Source: a virus. Taken from it: a stretch of 28,448 nt of DNA. Below the pieces are notes generated by a model. That model had not been told where the DNA came from, made no database searches, and saw nothing but the letters and a program-made list of their open reading frames with translations. The stretch is from IMG/VR virus record IMGVR_UViG_3300034983_000041, positions 1-28,448 of that record, one strand, 5' to 3'. Position numbers and translations under genes: made by a program. Of this stretch, positions 3,345 to 22,886 are shown piece after piece. Position 1 is the stretch's first letter. Each line of letters starts with the position of its first letter.

Positions 3345-4241
3345 ATGAATAAACAAGAAGTAATAAATAGATTAAAACCTATAATTGATAGAATAGGATA
3401 TAAAAATAAGTGGCTGCTGCATAAAAAATCTCTTGCTATGGCTCAGATAATTATTGAATCTAATTGGCTTCGTTCATCTCCAAAAAATAACTGTCTTGGT
3501 ATCAAGTGGACATCAAAATATCCCGAAAGCCGTAAGCAAATGCTATGGACGAAAGAGTGGGTAAATGGAAAATACGTTTCAGTCCTTGCACCGTTTTTAA
3601 CTTTTCAGTCTATTGAGCAGTGTATAGAAGAAGGCTACATAAGAATACTATCTCTTGACCGTTATAAAGAGACAAGGGAGGCAATAGACTGGTGGGACGC
3701 TACTAACCAGATAAGAATTGATGGTTATGCAACCTCGCCAGTATATAGTGATACTCTAAGAAATCTAATCCTAAAAGAACAGCTTTATAAGATTGACTGG
3801 ATCCGCCCTTATGATTGGCAACTCGAACTTAACTTCTTATGGGGTGAGACTTTTAGTCCAGTAAGATTTAAAGGAAAAACCTATACCAGAGTAATAGAAT
3901 CACCATTAGAGTATTGGCCTAATATAATTGATTTAGCTACCCAATTACAGATTGGCCGGGATTTTATAGGTCAGCCTTTTGTTATAACTCCCAGAGGTGC
4001 ATGGGGGAGAATTACCGAATATAACTATCAGTGCGGTGGCGCAAAAGCCAGCCAACATTTAGAATGGAACGCAGGAGATATTTATACTCCTAAAAAACTA
4101 ACTACTTATGAATTCTACAAAATTATGAATGAAAAGACAGATTGCTCTGGTTATGGAATTGGGAGTAATTTTCTGCATATAGATAGAAGAAAAGACAAGG
4201 ATAGAAAATTAATTAAACCGCCAAAGGTTTGGTATTACTAA
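3345..4241 (+). CDS. Bifunctional endolysin: glucosaminidase plus M15 peptidase
   Basis: Residues 1-150 match the N-acetylglucosaminidase/FlgJ type: helix with MAQIIIESNW (catalytic Glu38 candidate), then NNCLGIKW and the W/F-rich FLTFQSIEQCIEEG segment. Residues 180-290 match peptidase M15_3, the zinc D-Ala or L,D-type peptidase of phage lysins: GGAKASQHLEWNAGDI gives His228 and Asp235, and FLHIDRR gives His278 and Asp280 as metal and catalytic residues. The protein can therefore cut both glycan and peptide bonds. No signal peptide; it would rely on the holin at 4400. The normal Gly after QHL is Glu-Trp here (HLEWNAGD), a small departure from the usual motif. Confidence 0.82.
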   Translation: MNKQEVINRLKPIIDRIGYKNKWLLHKKSLAMAQIIIESNWLRSSPKNNCLGIKWTSKYPESRKQMLWTKEWVNGKYVSVLAPFLTFQSIEQCIEEGYIRILSLDRYKETREAIDWWDATNQIRIDGYATSPVYSDTLRNLILKEQLYKIDWIRPYDWQLELNFLWGETFSPVRFKGKTYTRVIESPLEYWPNIIDLATQLQIGRDFIGQPFVITPRGAWGRITEYNYQCGGAKASQHLEWNAGDIYTPKKLTTYEFYKIMNEKTDCSGYGIGSNFLHIDRRKDKDRKLIKPPKVWYY

Positions 4242-5219: not shown

Positions 5220-5606
5220 TTACAGATTTTTTTTTGACTCGACTTCTGGTTCTTCAAGTTCTTCTTCAATTTCTTCTATCGGTCTACCGTATTCAACTTC
5301 TACTTTTTTAAATTTCTTGGATTGTCTTAAACAATAATCCAGAAATCTTCTTTCATTTTCTATAAATTCTAATAATTCCTGCAGTCTATATTCGTAAAAG
5401 TAACTTGGTTTCACTTTAAATATTTTAGCAAGTTCTATTAAAATCTTTTTTGGTACAGGTGATTTTCTACGTCTATTAGGCAAGTTCCAAGCATAACTAT
5501 CTGTAATGTCTAATTCTCTTGCTATTTTACCATAAGAAATATCTGGAGAATTTTCCTTCAGTTGTAAAAAGGCATCACCAAAATTTTTATATGTTTTATT
5601 TTTCAT
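5220..5606 (-). CDS. Xre-family transcriptional repressor, CI-like, 128 aa
   Basis: Residues 8-72 form an HTH_3/Xre domain: ISYGKIARELDITDSYAWNL contains the helix-turn-helix, followed by the RRRKSPVPKKILIELAKIF segment and KPSYFYEYRL, typical of lambda-repressor-like folds. The C-terminal part is a charged helix and a very acidic tail; there is no S24 peptidase domain, so induction would not occur by RecA-stimulated self-cleavage. It is transcribed leftward from a promoter at 5645-5672, opposite the Cro-like gene, with operator-like palindromes between. This is the expected place for the lysogeny repressor. Confidence 0.75.
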   Translation of the reverse strand: MKNKTYKNFGDAFLQLKENSPDISYGKIARELDITDSYAWNLPNRRRKSPVPKKILIELAKIFKVKPSYFYEYRLQELLEFIENERRFLDYCLRQSKKFKKVEVEYGRPIEEIEEELEEPEVESKKNL

Positions 5607-5672: not shown

Positions 5673-5830
5673 AATTTGTGAAAATAATAGAACAAAAGTA
5701 TTGACTTTTAATTTTTAATGCTTATAATCATAATTGTAATGATTGAAAATTTTGTAAGAATAGAAAGCTCCGATAATATATAAACAGGAAATTTACCTCT
5801 CTAAACTTACAAAATTTACAAAATCTGCAA
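5666..5830. promoter_or_regulatory. Operator-like palindromes in the lysis-lysogeny switch
   Basis: Four related AT-rich sites are visible: TTTTCA-N7-TGAAAA at 5666-5684; AATCAT-N7-ATGATT at 5726-5744, covering the rightward -10 box; GAAAATTTTGTAAG at 5745-5758; and its near reverse complement CTTACAAAATTTAC at 5806-5819, followed by a weaker copy at 5816-5830. The shared core is ACAAAATTT. These are natural targets for the two Xre proteins, but binding is inferred. Confidence 0.5.
5701..5728 (+). promoter_or_regulatory. Rightward early promoter
   Basis: TTGACT (5701-5706), a 16-bp spacer and a perfect TATAAT (5723-5728). Transcription would start near 5735, leaving a leader of about 114 bases before the Cro-like gene. 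The -10 box overlaps the palindrome at 5726-5744, as expected of a repressor-controlled early promoter. Confidence 0.7.
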
Positions 5831-5848: not shown

Positions 5849-6082
5849 ATGAATAAATTAGGCGATATAATAAAAGAAAAGGGTTTAAAAAAGGGTTACA
5901 TAGCAAAAAAGATAAGTGTTAGCACACCTACATTACAGCGCTACATAGAAGGGGTTAATTATCCAGGTACAGACACTGCAAAAAAATTATCGGAACTTTT
6001 GGGTTATAGCATAGAGGAAATTTTTTTTGCTAAAAATACTATCAATGTTGTAAATGAAAAAAGTTTAAGTGATGTAAAATGA
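5849..6082 (+). CDS. Small Xre-family regulator, Cro-like, 77 aa
   Basis: An HTH_3 fold fills residues 4-60: GYIAKKISVSTPTLQRYIEG is the helix-turn-helix, followed by TDTAKKLSELLGYSIEEIFF. Position, as the first gene of the rightward transcript and divergent from the repressor, fits a Cro-type regulator. There is no recognisable ribosome site before the ATG, only an AT-rich tract, so translation may be weak or start differently. The next gene begins inside its stop region (4-base overlap). Confidence 0.75.
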   Translation: MNKLGDIIKEKGLKKGYIAKKISVSTPTLQRYIEGVNYPGTDTAKKLSELLGYSIEEIFFAKNTINVVNEKSLSDVK

Positions 6083-9302: not shown

Positions 9303-10715
9303 ATGAAGATATCAAGACTTGAAATTAGAAATGCATTGGGCATTAAAGAATTCGAGATCTCGCCCGACAAGATAACAATTATTCAGGGGAAAAATGAGTC
9401 CGGTAAAACATCGATTCTGGAGAGCATAGAAAGAGCTTTATATAACCGGAACCGTAGGGTCGATTTTGTGCGAAAAGGTGAGAAGGAAGCTGCATTATAT
9501 GTTGAGTTAGATAACGGGACAAAAATAGATAAGAAAGTTACATCGACCGGGGACACCAGAAGTAAGGTTATCCAGGAAGGGGTAATACTCGCAAAGCCAG
9601 AAAGTATGTTGAAATCCCTGGTAGGGGAATTTGCTTTTAACCCGATTGACTTTCTTAGAAAGACTGACAAAGAACAGAGCGAAATCCTTCTCTCATTAAT
9701 ACCCATGAGAATTACAGAAGAAGATTTAAAAAAATGGACTGGAGAAGTCCCATTGGTTAATTTGGATAATCACGCCATAAAGAATCTGGAATACCTGGCT
9801 GAAGAATATTTTTATGATAAAAGGACTACAGCAAATGCGGAGCTCAAAGATGTCAAGAATCAGATAGAGTCCTTAAGGGCCCAGTTGCCTGACAATTACA
9901 AGCCGGAGGAATGGGAAAAAGTGGATCTTTATTCCCTACATGAGAAAGTCCGAGAGGCCCGGGATCATAATTCCAATATCGTTGATGCCAAACTTTTTGT
10001 CGATGAATTTGAAGAAAGACAGAAAGACATTAACCGAAAATATGATATTGATAAAAAAAATAGAATTGACCTGGACGGGGCAAGAGTGCAGGAAATAAAT
10101 GACGAAATAATCCGGCTGAAAAACGAACTTGCGACAATAAAAGGCCAGCAGGAAGAAGCTATAAGACAAATTGAAAAAGAAAGGGAAGCAGAACTTCTGG
10201 CCCGGGTAAACATGAAAACCGAAAAAGAAGAATTCTTAAAAAATAATAAACAGATAGAAGATTTGGAACTTCTATCCGAAGCTAAAAAAGCCGAAGAGAT
10301 GAAAGGATACCTGAGCTTAGCAGAAAACCTGAAGAAGTTAGAAAAGGAAGAGATAACAAAAGAAGCTGAAGCTAAAAGGCTTGACACGGTTGTGGAGCTC
10401 TTAAGGGGAAAACCAGCTGAACTTCTTTCTAAAGTAAAACTCCCGATCAAGGGCTTAGGTATAAACGATAAAATGCAGGTTACAATTGATGATCTCCCAA
10501 TAGCGAATCTTTCGACATCGAGACAAATAGCACTTGCAATCGAAATAGCCAGGGCAACATCCGGGGAGCTCAAACTTATTTGCATAGATAGATTTGAAAC
10601 CCTTGATGAAGAACATAGAAAAATATTACTTGATGAGATTTCAAAGGACGGCTTCCAATATTTCATTTCAGAAGTCACTGAGGGAGAATTAAAAGTTTCA
10701 AAATTGGCATCGTAA
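9303..10715 (+). CDS. SMC/SbcC-like AAA ATPase, 470 aa
   Basis: The N-terminus has a P-loop, GKNESGKTS (residues 29-37). Residues 165-370 are highly charged coiled coil. The C-terminal lobe carries an SMC-type signature (NLSTSRQIALAIEIA, about residues 404-418) and a Walker B stretch (LKLICIDRFETLDEE, about residues 427-441), completing an ABC-type head like SbcC, RecN or RecF. It is much shorter than SbcC, and the coil lacks an evident Cys-hook (CxxC). With the preceding Cas4-like nuclease it probably forms a DNA-end-processing pair. GGAAG lies upstream of the ATG. Confidence 0.8.
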   Translation: MKISRLEIRNALGIKEFEISPDKITIIQGKNESGKTSILESIERALYNRNRRVDFVRKGEKEAALYVELDNGTKIDKKVTSTGDTRSKVIQEGVILAKPESMLKSLVGEFAFNPIDFLRKTDKEQSEILLSLIPMRITEEDLKKWTGEVPLVNLDNHAIKNLEYLAEEYFYDKRTTANAELKDVKNQIESLRAQLPDNYKPEEWEKVDLYSLHEKVREARDHNSNIVDAKLFVDEFEERQKDINRKYDIDKKNRIDLDGARVQEINDEIIRLKNELATIKGQQEEAIRQIEKEREAELLARVNMKTEKEEFLKNNKQIEDLELLSEAKKAEEMKGYLSLAENLKKLEKEEITKEAEAKRLDTVVELLRGKPAELLSKVKLPIKGLGINDKMQVTIDDLPIANLSTSRQIALAIEIARATSGELKLICIDRFETLDEEHRKILLDEISKDGFQYFISEVTEGELKVSKLAS

Positions 10716-12539: not shown

Positions 12540-12719
12540 ATGGACGCTAATAGGTTAAAACAAATTTACAAACTACATGGAGCGGATAGACTAATAGAAA
12601 ACATACTCCGCAACAATGACGTAATAGAAGGATTACAAAAAAGACTTGAAGGATTGCAGTATCTGGGTAGGTTTAATCTTAATGGTAGGGATTATAGTTT
12701 TTATGTGAGGCAAGAATGA
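12540..12719 (+). CDS. Hypothetical small protein, 59 aa
   Basis: Ribosome site GAAGGTGA sits 6 bases before the ATG, and the stop overlaps the ATG of the radical SAM gene (ATGA). The product is a helical, slightly basic protein ending in a short beta-like segment (FNLNGRDYSFYV). It is lodged between the methyltransferase and radical SAM genes and probably made together with them. No family recognised. Confidence 0.55.
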   Translation: MDANRLKQIYKLHGADRLIENILRNNDVIEGLQKRLEGLQYLGRFNLNGRDYSFYVRQE

Positions 12720-13582
12720 AGGTTTTAATTATAAATATAGATAGTAAGAGAATGCCAAATTATGCTCTAAAAAAGATTGAGAAATATCATCTCGACAAAG
12801 GTAATGAGGTAATATGGGATATGCCCTTATATATTGGATATGTAGATAAAATATATGTTTCATGTATTTTTGAGAAAAATAAAAACAAGTGTTTTGATTA
12901 TGAAAATTATGATAATTGTTTTATTGGCGGTAGTGGTTATGATATTATAGAAAAACTCCCAGAAGAAATAGAAAGAGTTAAGCCTCGCATTAATTTGGGT
13001 TTTACCACTCGTGGCTGTATAAGAAATTGCCCATTTTGTATTGTTCCGCAAAAAGAGGGAAAAATTAGAATTGTCGGTGATCTGTTGGATTTATGGGACG
13101 GTAAAAGTAAGGATATAATTTTACTCGATAATAATATATTAGCATTACCAAAACATTTTAAATTAATCTGCAGGCAGGCAAGAGAAAATAATATCAGGTT
13201 GGATTTTAATCAAGGATTGGACTGTAGGCTTTTAAATCAAGGAATAATAGATGATATAAAATCAATCAGACATCAAGAATTACATTTTGCATGGGATAAT
13301 ATTGGAGATTATCAAGAGGTAAGAGAAGCCATAGATTTACTACAAAAAAATAATATTAACCGTTGTACCTGGTTAATGCTTACTGGATTTAATTCTACGT
13401 TGGAAGAAGATATCTTAAGGGCAAAATACTTACGGGATAGAAATCAAAATGCTTATGTTATGAGATATAACAATTCCAAATGCAAAGATTTAATACCACT
13501 TAGCAGGTGGGTAAATAATAGATCATGGTTTCACTCAATTACCTGGGAAGAATTTTTAAAAAGGAATTATGTAAATGTTTAG
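12716..13582 (+). CDS. Radical SAM protein with B12-binding-like N-terminal domain
   Basis: The CxxxCxxC cluster motif is complete: CIRNCPFC (Cys101, Cys105, Cys108), preceded by NLGFTTRG. Residues 1-90 resemble the Rossmann-like cobalamin-binding domain often found N-terminal to such cores (MKVLIINID, KIYVSCIF, CFIGGSGYD), although the DxHxxG cobalamin motif is not seen. Later segments (ILLDNNILA, LDFNQGLDCRLL, WLMLTGFN, YVMRYNN) continue the barrel. I recall similar proteins in environmental phages, with no known reaction. It is coupled to the preceding small gene and lies next to a DNA methyltransferase, so nucleic-acid or nucleotide modification is a reasonable guess only. Confidence 0.8.
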   Translation: MKVLIINIDSKRMPNYALKKIEKYHLDKGNEVIWDMPLYIGYVDKIYVSCIFEKNKNKCFDYENYDNCFIGGSGYDIIEKLPEEIERVKPRINLGFTTRGCIRNCPFCIVPQKEGKIRIVGDLLDLWDGKSKDIILLDNNILALPKHFKLICRQARENNIRLDFNQGLDCRLLNQGIIDDIKSIRHQELHFAWDNIGDYQEVREAIDLLQKNNINRCTWLMLTGFNSTLEEDILRAKYLRDRNQNAYVMRYNNSKCKDLIPLSRWVNNRSWFHSITWEEFLKRNYVNV

Positions 13583-13892: not shown

Positions 13893-13986
13893 ATTACCCT
13901 TTATAATTTTTATAATATTAATTGCAATTATAAGTTATTTATATTGTGAGATAAGGAGATTAAATGTCGAGAAGAAATTGGATTAA
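13882..13986 (+). CDS. Possible single-pass membrane microprotein, 34 aa
   Basis: A frame of 34 codons overlaps the end of the preceding gene and the start of the replication initiator. It holds one strong membrane helix (FIIFIILIAIISYLY) followed by a basic end. The upstream ribosome site is weak (GGA). Its similarity in layout to the microproteins at 7089 and 11110 supports it, but it could be chance in AT-rich DNA. Confidence 0.35.
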   Translation: MVNKLPFIIFIILIAIISYLYCEIRRLNVEKKLD

Positions 13987-14701
13987 GATTTACCCAGAAG
14001 GGTTTTTACGTAGAACCCTTTATAAGGAAATACCCAAACCAGCGGAAAGGTGGGCTTGGATTGGATTGTTATGTTTGGCTGGGGATAATGCTTTTGACGG
14101 CAAAGTTTGTATAACTGAAACAATGGGATACACAGATGAACAGATAGCAGCACAGCTCTGTATGGAAGTAGATACCTTTAAGAGTGCTAAAAAGAAGATG
14201 ATTAAATTTGAGAAAATAGCAGTAGATAAAAATAATATTATACAAATTTTAGGTTGGAAAACATACCAATCAGAATATAGCAGGCAAAGGGATTATCAAG
14301 CTGAAAGAAGAAAGAAACTTACAACGCAAACTTACAACGCAAACTTACGCATAGATAAAGATATAGATATAGATATAGATAAAGATATATATAAAGATAA
14401 AGATAATAATACATATAGCCCTGACCTTAAAGATAAGTCAGGGCAGAAACCTAAAATTAATTTTAATTTCTCTACTTCTATTTGGGAAAACATAACAGAT
14501 AATAATAAAAAGATATGGATTGAAGCATACCCAGCTTGTGATATTGAGCAAGAATTAAAAAAAATGAAAGCCTGGATTATATCAGCTGGGGCTAAGGGAC
14601 ATAAAAAAGATTGGCTACGGTTTATAAATAGCTGGCTATCAAGGGCGCAGGATAGAAGTGGAAATGTAAATAAAAAAACAAGCGACTGGAGGCGTACATA
14701 A
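13964..14701 (+). CDS. Replication initiator, DnaD-like phage replisome organizer
   Basis: The N-terminal 110 residues match the phage replisome organizer pattern: RNWIKIYPEGFLR, then helices typical of the winged-helix domain (ITETMGYTDEQIAAQL, VDTFKSAKKKM, ILGWKTYQSEYSRQR). A low-complexity linker follows (LRIDKDIDIDIDKDIYKDKD), encoded by the AT-rich tract of the apparent origin. The C-terminal 80 residues end in KKDWLRFINSWLSRA, a common end of these initiators. It should bind the origin and recruit the helicase loader encoded next. The ribosome site AAGGAG is strong; the stop overlaps the loader start (TAATG). Confidence 0.75.
   Translation: MSRRNWIKIYPEGFLRRTLYKEIPKPAERWAWIGLLCLAGDNAFDGKVCITETMGYTDEQIAAQLCMEVDTFKSAKKKMIKFEKIAVDKNNIIQILGWKTYQSEYSRQRDYQAERRKKLTTQTYNANLRIDKDIDIDIDKDIYKDKDNNTYSPDLKDKSGQKPKINFNFSTSIWENITDNNKKIWIEAYPACDIEQELKKMKAWIISAGAKGHKKDWLRFINSWLSRAQDRSGNVNKKTSDWRRT
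14315..14444. other. Putative replication origin inside the initiator gene
   Basis: AAACTTACAACGC occurs twice in direct tandem (14315-14327 and 14328-14340), with a shortened third copy, AAACTTACGC, at 14341-14350. About 65 bases of nearly pure A/T with GATATA-type repeats follow (14351-14417). Then a perfect 8-bp hairpin, GCCCTGAC (14418-14425) with GTCAGGGC (14437-14444). Iterons, an unwinding tract and an initiator gene in one place match the arrangement of the lambda origin inside gene O. Activity is inferred. Confidence 0.6.
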
Positions 14702-15105
14702 TGGTAAATAGGAAAATATTTGATGATGGCTTAGAAGAAATTGAAAACGCATTTGACGGATTTTTAATGACTAAGACAAAAGCTGATATCTGGTATAAAT
14801 ATTGCAAGGATTTAACCGACAACAAATTTTTATATAGGATAGCTAATTGCATAAAAGGGTGTAGAAAAATACCTGCTCTTGCCGATATCCTGGACTGGAG
14901 AAATTACTACGTAAATGAAAAAGAAGAAGCTGACATAAGAGCTAAAAAAGATGAGATAAAAAATGAAGCAATAAAAAAGATGGAAATGAAGTTTAGAAAA
15001 GAAACTGATTACAGCACCATACCAGAAGAAGCTAAAAAAATTATGGCTAAGATAAACCCCAAATATAGGTATAAATTAAAAAGGAGCGTGATAGATAATG
15101 AGTAA
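14701..15105 (+). CDS. Putative replicative helicase loader (gp39P-like)
   Basis: The first 65 residues resemble the N-terminal helical domain of loaders such as SPP1 gp39P (Inhibitor_G39P type): DIWYKYCKDLTDNKFLYRIA then KIPALADILDWRN, ending in a highly charged helix (90-134). Size (134 aa) is close to that family. Its start overlaps the initiator stop (TAATG), the usual organizer-loader order in Gram-positive phages. No helicase gene is seen downstream, so the host DnaB-type helicase is probably recruited. Confidence 0.65.
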   Translation: MVNRKIFDDGLEEIENAFDGFLMTKTKADIWYKYCKDLTDNKFLYRIANCIKGCRKIPALADILDWRNYYVNEKEEADIRAKKDEIKNEAIKKMEMKFRKETDYSTIPEEAKKIMAKINPKYRYKLKRSVIDNE

Positions 15106-22181: not shown

Positions 22182-22886
22182 ATGGACGAGTTAGATACTC
22201 AATTAGCAGAAGATTTAAAAGCACAAAAAGATGGCCAGGAGCCAGAAGCAGGGCAAGAACCTGCAAAACAAACAGAGCCAACAGAACCAATAGAGGAGAC
22301 AAAGCCACCAGAACCTAAGACATTTGATGAGAACTATGTCAGGGGACTTAGGGCTGAGAATGCACGCTACAGAAGGCAACTAAGGGAAACTGAAGCCTCA
22401 ATACCAAATATAGTTCAAAGCGAGATTCAGAGAGTTCTTTATCCACAGGGTCAGCAAGGACAGGGTTATCCTCAGGCAGGACAACCGCAGGAGTATTACG
22501 ATCCGAGAGTAGACGACATGCTGCTGGCAAAAAAAATGGGTGAAATTAAGGCAGATCCTTATTTCGGCGAGTTATTTGCAGAAGTAGACGAGGAAGGCAG
22601 AACCTTCGAAGAAAGAGTTCTTGAAACAGCAGTAGAGAAGCAATGGCCAATAGCAGAGCTTGATGCTCTGGTATTTAAGATGGAAAAAGAAAAACTATTC
22701 GGACGGGTAAAACAAAAAGGAATTGATGAGGCATATAAAAGCATGTCCACTAAGGCGCAAGGCTCGGCAGAAAAAAACGTATCTTCAGGTAAGAGCGTTG
22801 AAGAAGGCGAAGTTGAAACTATTGATGACGCAGTTAAAAAAGCAATGAAAGAACACGGAGTCACAAGTTTATCAGAACTCAGGTAG
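22182..22886 (+). CDS. Scaffolding protein, 234 aa
   Basis: Position directly before the capsid gene and composition identify it: a very acidic, Pro-rich N-terminus (EPEAGQEPAKQTEPTEPIEE), a coiled segment (ENYVRGLRAENARYRRQLRE), a Gln/Gly/Tyr-rich hinge (QGQQGQGYPQAGQPQEYY) and a helical C-terminal half. Scaffolds have low sequence conservation, so evidence is mostly context. Ribosome site GGGAGG is strong. It would guide procapsid assembly and be removed later. Confidence 0.75.
   Translation: MDELDTQLAEDLKAQKDGQEPEAGQEPAKQTEPTEPIEETKPPEPKTFDENYVRGLRAENARYRRQLRETEASIPNIVQSEIQRVLYPQGQQGQGYPQAGQPQEYYDPRVDDMLLAKKMGEIKADPYFGELFAEVDEEGRTFEERVLETAVEKQWPIAELDALVFKMEKEKLFGRVKQKGIDEAYKSMSTKAQGSAEKNVSSGKSVEEGEVETIDDAVKKAMKEHGVTSLSELR

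Follow-up and report, generated by a model that had tools for sequence, protein, structure and literature searches.

A candidate replication origin within the replisome organizer gene of an uncultured phage, with a layout that recurs in related phages

The replication origin of phage lambda lies inside its initiator gene O, where four iterons of ~18-20 bp are followed by an A+T-rich region; a helicase-loader gene comes directly after O. In the phages TP901-1 and Tuc2009, the replisome organizers ORF13 and ORF16, respectively, each bind direct repeats that lie in the gene encoding them, and these repeats serve as ori (PMC8965321). The Tuc2009 rep gene is accordingly annotated 'contains origin of replication'. 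Here, we describe a linear IMG/VR virus sequence of 28,448 bases, the whole of which we call the window, with a comparable arrangement in its replication initiator gene. Based on comparison with relatives and analogy to described origins, positions 14315-14411, perhaps extending to 14444, would constitute a theta-type replication origin within the gene of its own initiator, working by iteron binding and tract melting (probability about 0.86). The features discussed below are the following.

13964-14701, + strand: replisome organizer (replication initiator) gene, 245 aa, with matches to PF09681 and phrog_4880
14021-14329, + strand: N-terminal domain (residues 20-122), winged-helix-like and presumed to bind the iterons (AlphaFold2, Foldseek)
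14315-14327, + strand: iteron 1, AAACTTACAACGC, exact copy, frame offset 0
14328-14340, + strand: iteron 2, AAACTTACAACGC, exact copy, frame offset 1
14341-14350, + strand: iteron 3, shortened, AAACTTACGC, frame offset 2
14351-14411, + strand: C-free A/T-rich hexamer tract (GATATA/GATAAA) that codes for a D-K-I linker, presumed DNA unwinding element
14418-14444, no strand assigned: hairpin with perfect 8-bp arms (14418-14425 and 14437-14444) and an 11-nt loop, optional third element
14474-14668, + strand: helical C-terminal domain (residues 171-235), kin to the Ruminococcus phage phiRgIBDN1 replisome organizer
14701-15105, + strand: downstream ORF, 134 aa, overlapping the initiator stop codon; helicase-loader candidate by position alone

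The 13964-14701 protein matches PF09681 (Phage_rep_org_N; E=5.6e-10), which is its sole Pfam match even at E<=10, and phrog_4880 'replisome organizer' (E=2.1e-12). In an AlphaFold2 model calculated from an alignment of 50 family members, the N-terminal domain has the order H-H-E-H-H-E-E, with block-mean pLDDT values of 78-97 over residues 21-120. Linker residues 124-158 and 160-171 fall below a pLDDT of 50 and are predicted to be disordered, and the C-terminal domain is helical with moderate model confidence. Foldseek searches of the PDB matched mostly winged-helix regulators, none at E<0.001; Foldseek also matched viral replication proteins at E ~1e-4, including the Streptococcus phage Abc2 replisome organiser. 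These structure matches are consistent with a DNA-binding N-terminus but are not decisive. The iterons encode residues 118-129, the tract residues 130-150, and the hairpin residues 152-161, which, set against the model, places the tract and hairpin wholly and the iterons partly within the stretch that has no predicted fold. The DNA elements thus coincide with the predicted disordered linker.

Toward its C-terminus, the protein resembles the phiRgIBDN1 replisome organizer, which matches residues 108-231 in BLASTP (E=6e-14) and shows 44% identity over residues 165-231 in tblastn. The model of the downstream ORF (14701-15105) is all-helical with low confidence (pLDDT 54), and family-profile searches with this ORF gave no matches. 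Its identification as a G39P-type loader was unsupported, as the searches returned weak matches only, to an unrelated ribonuclease. A radical SAM gene (phrog_9298) is located at 12716-13582, just upstream of the replication initiator.

The first-pass annotation had described 13-bp tandem iterons, two exact and one shortened, followed by a tract and then a hairpin, all inside the linker of the replisome organizer. We found the iterons at 14315-14350, and the coordinates confirm this order. The array amounts to 2.6 copies of 13 bp, with each copy in a different reading frame, and its third member consists of AAACTTAC (14341-14348) followed by GC, equivalent to the unit minus AAC. A 21-base self-match at lag 13 is the sole such run with at least two C in the window, and the longest lag-13 self-match among 100 simulated second-order Markov sequences of 28,448 bases was 13. 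A search for further iterons elsewhere in the window yielded one site with one mismatch, at 5933, which is below the chance mean.

The adjoining tract had been characterized as approximately 65 bp and A/T-only-like. The A/T-rich tract is indeed present, but it spans 61 nt with 36 A, 17 T, 8 G, and 0 C (87% A+T), making it C-free rather than A/T-only. Tandem-repeat rows (TRF) cover 14351-14405. A C-free run of this length occurred in 6 of 50 codon shuffles, so that, given the protein and its codons, the run alone is mildly unusual and not extreme. The DnaA-trio unwinding element is a run of [T/A]A[G/A] trinucleotides; we rejected this reading of the tract, in which the longest run is 2 against a shuffle mean of 2.9.

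The third element is a perfect hairpin in which, as predicted, all 8 of 8 positions pair. Folded as DNA, it has an energy of -9.6 kcal/mol (z = -6.7), and no other inverted repeat in the window combines arms of 8 or more, 4 or more G/C, and a loop no longer than 12. Across the family surveyed below, G/C-containing hairpins are most frequent immediately after the tract, 135-255 nt past the conserved W-x-x-[HY]-Q motif (13 versus 2.9 in codon shuffles). Two of these 13 hairpins are iterons, and the hairpin count further downstream is approximately at background. A post-tract hairpin is present in a minority of the family. Hairpins directly behind the tract are seen in the r1t ORF11 linker (L262) and in L014, L165, L170, L216, L225, and L266. 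In the phages of lactic acid bacteria, including r1t, the hairpin encodes SGxPD, and its arms change in pairs at synonymous sites (GTCAGG/CCTGAC, GTCGGG/CCCGAC, and GTCTGG/CCAGAC); in L266 (GTCGAG/CTCGAC), pairing is kept although the amino acids have changed. All pairs are kept across the 7 distinct hairpin sequences, a degree of covariation reached in 1 of 500 shuffles, in a sample that is small and, L266 excepted, was chosen by protein motif. The arms of the window's hairpin differ from those of the lactic-acid-bacteria hairpins, and the likeness is one of position that does not imply homology of the two. The role of the hairpin is a matter of guesswork: it may be a site for priming or loading, or a signal within the transcript.

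Protein searches of viral and genome collections retrieved one close relative only, L002. Its first 130 residues are 71% identical to those of the window protein, and the C-terminal halves of the two proteins show no similarity. At the matching place, L002 carries the iterons AAAGTTACAACGC, GAAGTTACAACGG, AAAGTTATAACGC, and AGAGTTACC, one more than the window, followed by a GATAGA hexamer tract. Comparison of the iterons in close relatives had been proposed as a check on the origin, and in this one relative, the repeats and tract are neither lost nor shuffled but align in register with those of the window. Their retention next to an unrelated C-terminus indicates that both belong with the N-terminal domain. 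The hairpin is absent from L002 and is therefore not a constant feature. An exact scan of viral contigs for TTACAACG N5 TTACAACG returned ten stretches; nine are in unrelated genes or non-coding DNA and were dismissed as chance, the exception (L011) being L002's own contig. Scans of genome contigs for the window protein found no relative, and a host is thus not assignable.

We next to this comparison surveyed 243 genes (L002 to L259, phage records, and the window), which fall into 96 distinct linker clusters that are not fully independent because the phages share ancestry. Repeats followed by an A/T-rich tract are found in nearly all 96 clusters, with tract units such as GATATA, GATAAA, GAAGAA, and similar hexamers. 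Repeats were counted in the first 240 nt past the W-x-x-[HY]-Q motif and compared to shuffles that keep the protein and codon usage. The 96 clusters contain 810 C-containing 7-mer repeat pairs, whereas the shuffles average 176 and reach at most 235. Of 284 repeat runs, 119 have a spacing not divisible by 3, and the spacings concentrate at 10-13, 21-24, and 33 bases, close to one, two, and three turns of the helix. A stricter test based on one 6-mer per cluster was significant in 29 of 96 clusters. In 84 of 96 clusters, the linker holds the gene's longest C-free run, compared with an expectation of 29%, and copies of the repeated word lie upstream of the tract in 69 of the 75 clusters having at least 3 copies of one word. 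The arrangement is thus conserved in the family and constrained at the DNA level.

Four genes (L167, L218, L224, and L241) contain a reversed tract, in which the coding strand carries TCTTATTCTTTATCTAATAAT and the usual AGATAAAGAATAAGA motif is on the other strand. This other strand reads AGATAAAGAATAAGAG, with G spacings of 3 and 6 unchanged. The reversed tracts encode Ser, Tyr, Leu, and Asn where the usual ones encode Asp, Lys, and Ile, and a tract that is turned around and encodes other residues is hard to explain by selection on the protein linker. In a partial rank correlation over 92 clusters, iteron similarity rises with similarity of the N-termini after controlling for the C-termini (0.16, a value reached by 1 of 300 permutations) but shows no relation to similarity of the C-termini after controlling for the N-termini (0.00; 149 of 300 permutations). 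This weak effect is in the expected direction, perhaps suggesting that the iterons change with the DNA-binding domain. No pairs with a similar C-terminus and a dissimilar N-terminus met the thresholds.

Two members of the set differ in layout. L217 (1501-2244) has the gene with neither iterons nor tract, and there are no tandem repeats in the 3.4 kb around it; the arrangement is therefore not obligatory, and the L217 origin may be elsewhere. L201 has a wider linker because an HNH-endonuclease-like segment (CVYCGRNANTVDHIIPISKGG; 1890-2160) has been added in frame after the DNA-binding domain and ahead of the iterons. We initially listed L201 as a relative lacking iterons and dropped this classification, as iterons and tract are found past the insert.

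Repeats and linker could in principle be accounted for in other ways. If the linker were low-complexity at the protein level, charged and flexible, the DNA pattern would be a by-product of AT-rich codon usage. The predicted disorder fits this explanation, as does the unexceptional length of the window's C-free run, but neither iteron copies in three frames, nor a repeat excess over protein-preserving shuffles, nor opposite-orientation tracts encoding other residues would be expected from it. We regard it as largely refuted and the least probable of the alternatives; the earlier proposal that DNA function explains the DKDIDIDIDKD linker is instead supported by the codon-shuffle tests and by the relatives with reversed tracts. 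The repeats might also be operator sites through which the protein represses its own transcription from inside the gene, with no origin function. In iteron plasmids, initiator-bound iterons often double in autoregulation, and several iteron classes in the relatives are palindromic. However, the repeats lie 350 nt inside the gene, promoter-like sites around them are not enriched (13 versus 11.3 in shuffles), and a melting-type tract beside them has no role in repression. Because the intragenic repeats of TP901-1, Tuc2009, and SPP1 are published as origins, among other points, we consider a purely regulatory function very improbable.

For the hairpin, the alternative is a transcription terminator or attenuator that is not part of the origin. 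Hairpins can act within a transcript, this one gives a terminator-like match on the minus strand (14444-14418), and in relatives the hairpin travels with the C-terminal part of the gene. The minus-strand site nevertheless ends in TATATGTATT, with no clean T run, and the coding strand has no terminator-like site at the hairpin. Since a post-tract hairpin also recurs in other initiator genes and covaries, we judge a transcriptional role unlikely, although it carries appreciably more weight than the two alternatives for the repeats.

An origin within the initiator gene, as claimed by the first-pass annotation, is strongly supported by comparison with relatives and with published intragenic origins. 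In the proposed mechanism, the winged-helix-like N-terminus of the 13964-14701 protein would bind the tandem 13-bp iterons as a multimer, and the C-free A/T-rich tract beside them would melt. The helical C-terminal domain, together with a loader, would then bring in the replicative helicase, and the protein linker sequence would mostly reflect the DNA elements that have to be encoded there. The binding and melting steps, the recruitment of the helicase, and the use of the site as an origin are inferred from characterised relatives. Cumulative GC skew, suggested earlier as a check, rises almost throughout the window, dips only at ~4.5-6 kb, and does not turn at 14.3 kb; it thus gives no independent support. 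Since the record represents only part of a genome, replication might start at some other place in that genome. A search of the window for DnaA boxes found one TTATCCACA at 22439, which is at chance level, and an Rfam search matched nothing.

Other features of the window include an AGTTA pentamer array (2901-2946) between an endolysin-like gene that ends at 2882 and an ORF at 2950. Two endolysin-like genes are located near each other (1761-2882 and 3345-4241), the second of which joins glucosaminidase and M15 peptidase domains. Direct repeats of AAATTTACA (5803-5824) lie upstream of an HTH_3 gene at 5849, with a divergent gene (5220-5606) on their other side, and are candidate operators. With the AAA gene at 9303-10715 as bait, no related modules were found.

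A broader and more tentative interpretation, which we hold to be somewhat doubtful, is that the PF09681-type linker is a cassette of exchangeable modules shaped mainly by DNA: iterons that track the domain, a C-free tract in either orientation, and an optional covarying hairpin as a third functional element. A strand-asymmetric tract used in either orientation would then be a sequence-specific single-strand element and not merely A+T-rich DNA, and the hairpin would, for example, help to prime synthesis or to load the helicase. Sequence-specific roles of this sort are suggested by the reversed tracts and by the covariation of the hairpin; these two findings and the generality of the layout may be worth specialist follow-up. 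For the uncultured phage lineage studied here, the analysis provides a precise, testable candidate origin. It also suggests that for many phages the origin could be located by searching the linker of the initiator gene for a C-free tract and repeats that shift frame.

Comparison with described systems helps to place this candidate. The label 'lambda-like' holds as an analogy of layout, but the initiator families are unrelated (the window gene belongs to PF09681 and matches no lambda O family), and its 13-bp iterons, in 2.6 copies, are fewer and shorter than lambda's four. With origins of the TP901-1/Tuc2009/r1t kind, the window shares a replisome-organizer gene, tandem direct repeats within it, and an adjoining A+T-rich region. 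Tuc2009 Rep (ORF16) has CAACC repeats and then a C-free AGGATAG/AGTATAG tract in its linker, and TP901-1 likewise has a direct-repeat origin within its replisome-organizer gene, although without an obvious GAT-hexamer tract. Both differ from the window in domains (Rep_Org_C PF06926; HTH_36 plus DnaB_2) and in iteron sequence and spacing. The closest three-part match is r1t ORF11, with GGAACC repeats at ~11 bp, a AGATAAGAATAGATTAG tract, and a GTCAGGTAAACCTGAC hairpin, all in the linker and arranged in this order, as in the window; its N- and C-terminal domains are different (C-terminus PF09524), as are its iteron sequence and period (11 versus 13 bp). SPP1 oriL in gene 38, compared by published description, also combines direct repeats with an AT-rich DUE inside the gene of the origin-binding protein, but SPP1 has a second origin, oriR.

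PF09681 organizers of Bacillota phages, such as Streptococcus phage Javan240, share the window's N-terminal family and have iterons followed by a GATATA/GATAAA tract in the linker. Most of their iterons are the palindromes GTAACGTTAC or GTCACGTGAC, at 11-12 bp, and their C-terminal domains are different, whereas the window and L002 form a divergent PF09681 subfamily with TTACAACGC at 13 bp. The N-terminal half of the phiRgIBDN1 protein matches Tuc2009 Rep (49%) and has the same kind of repeats, so by sequence similarity this protein links the Tuc2009 Rep group, through its N-terminal half, and the window protein, through its C-terminal half. The best reading is that the true kin of the candidate origin are the TP901-1/Tuc2009/r1t/SPP1-type origins and not lambda. 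Origins arranged in this way inside the initiator gene have been described before in dairy and Bacillus phages; the window is a new case, and the survey indicates, at the level of sequence, that this layout recurs across many related phages.
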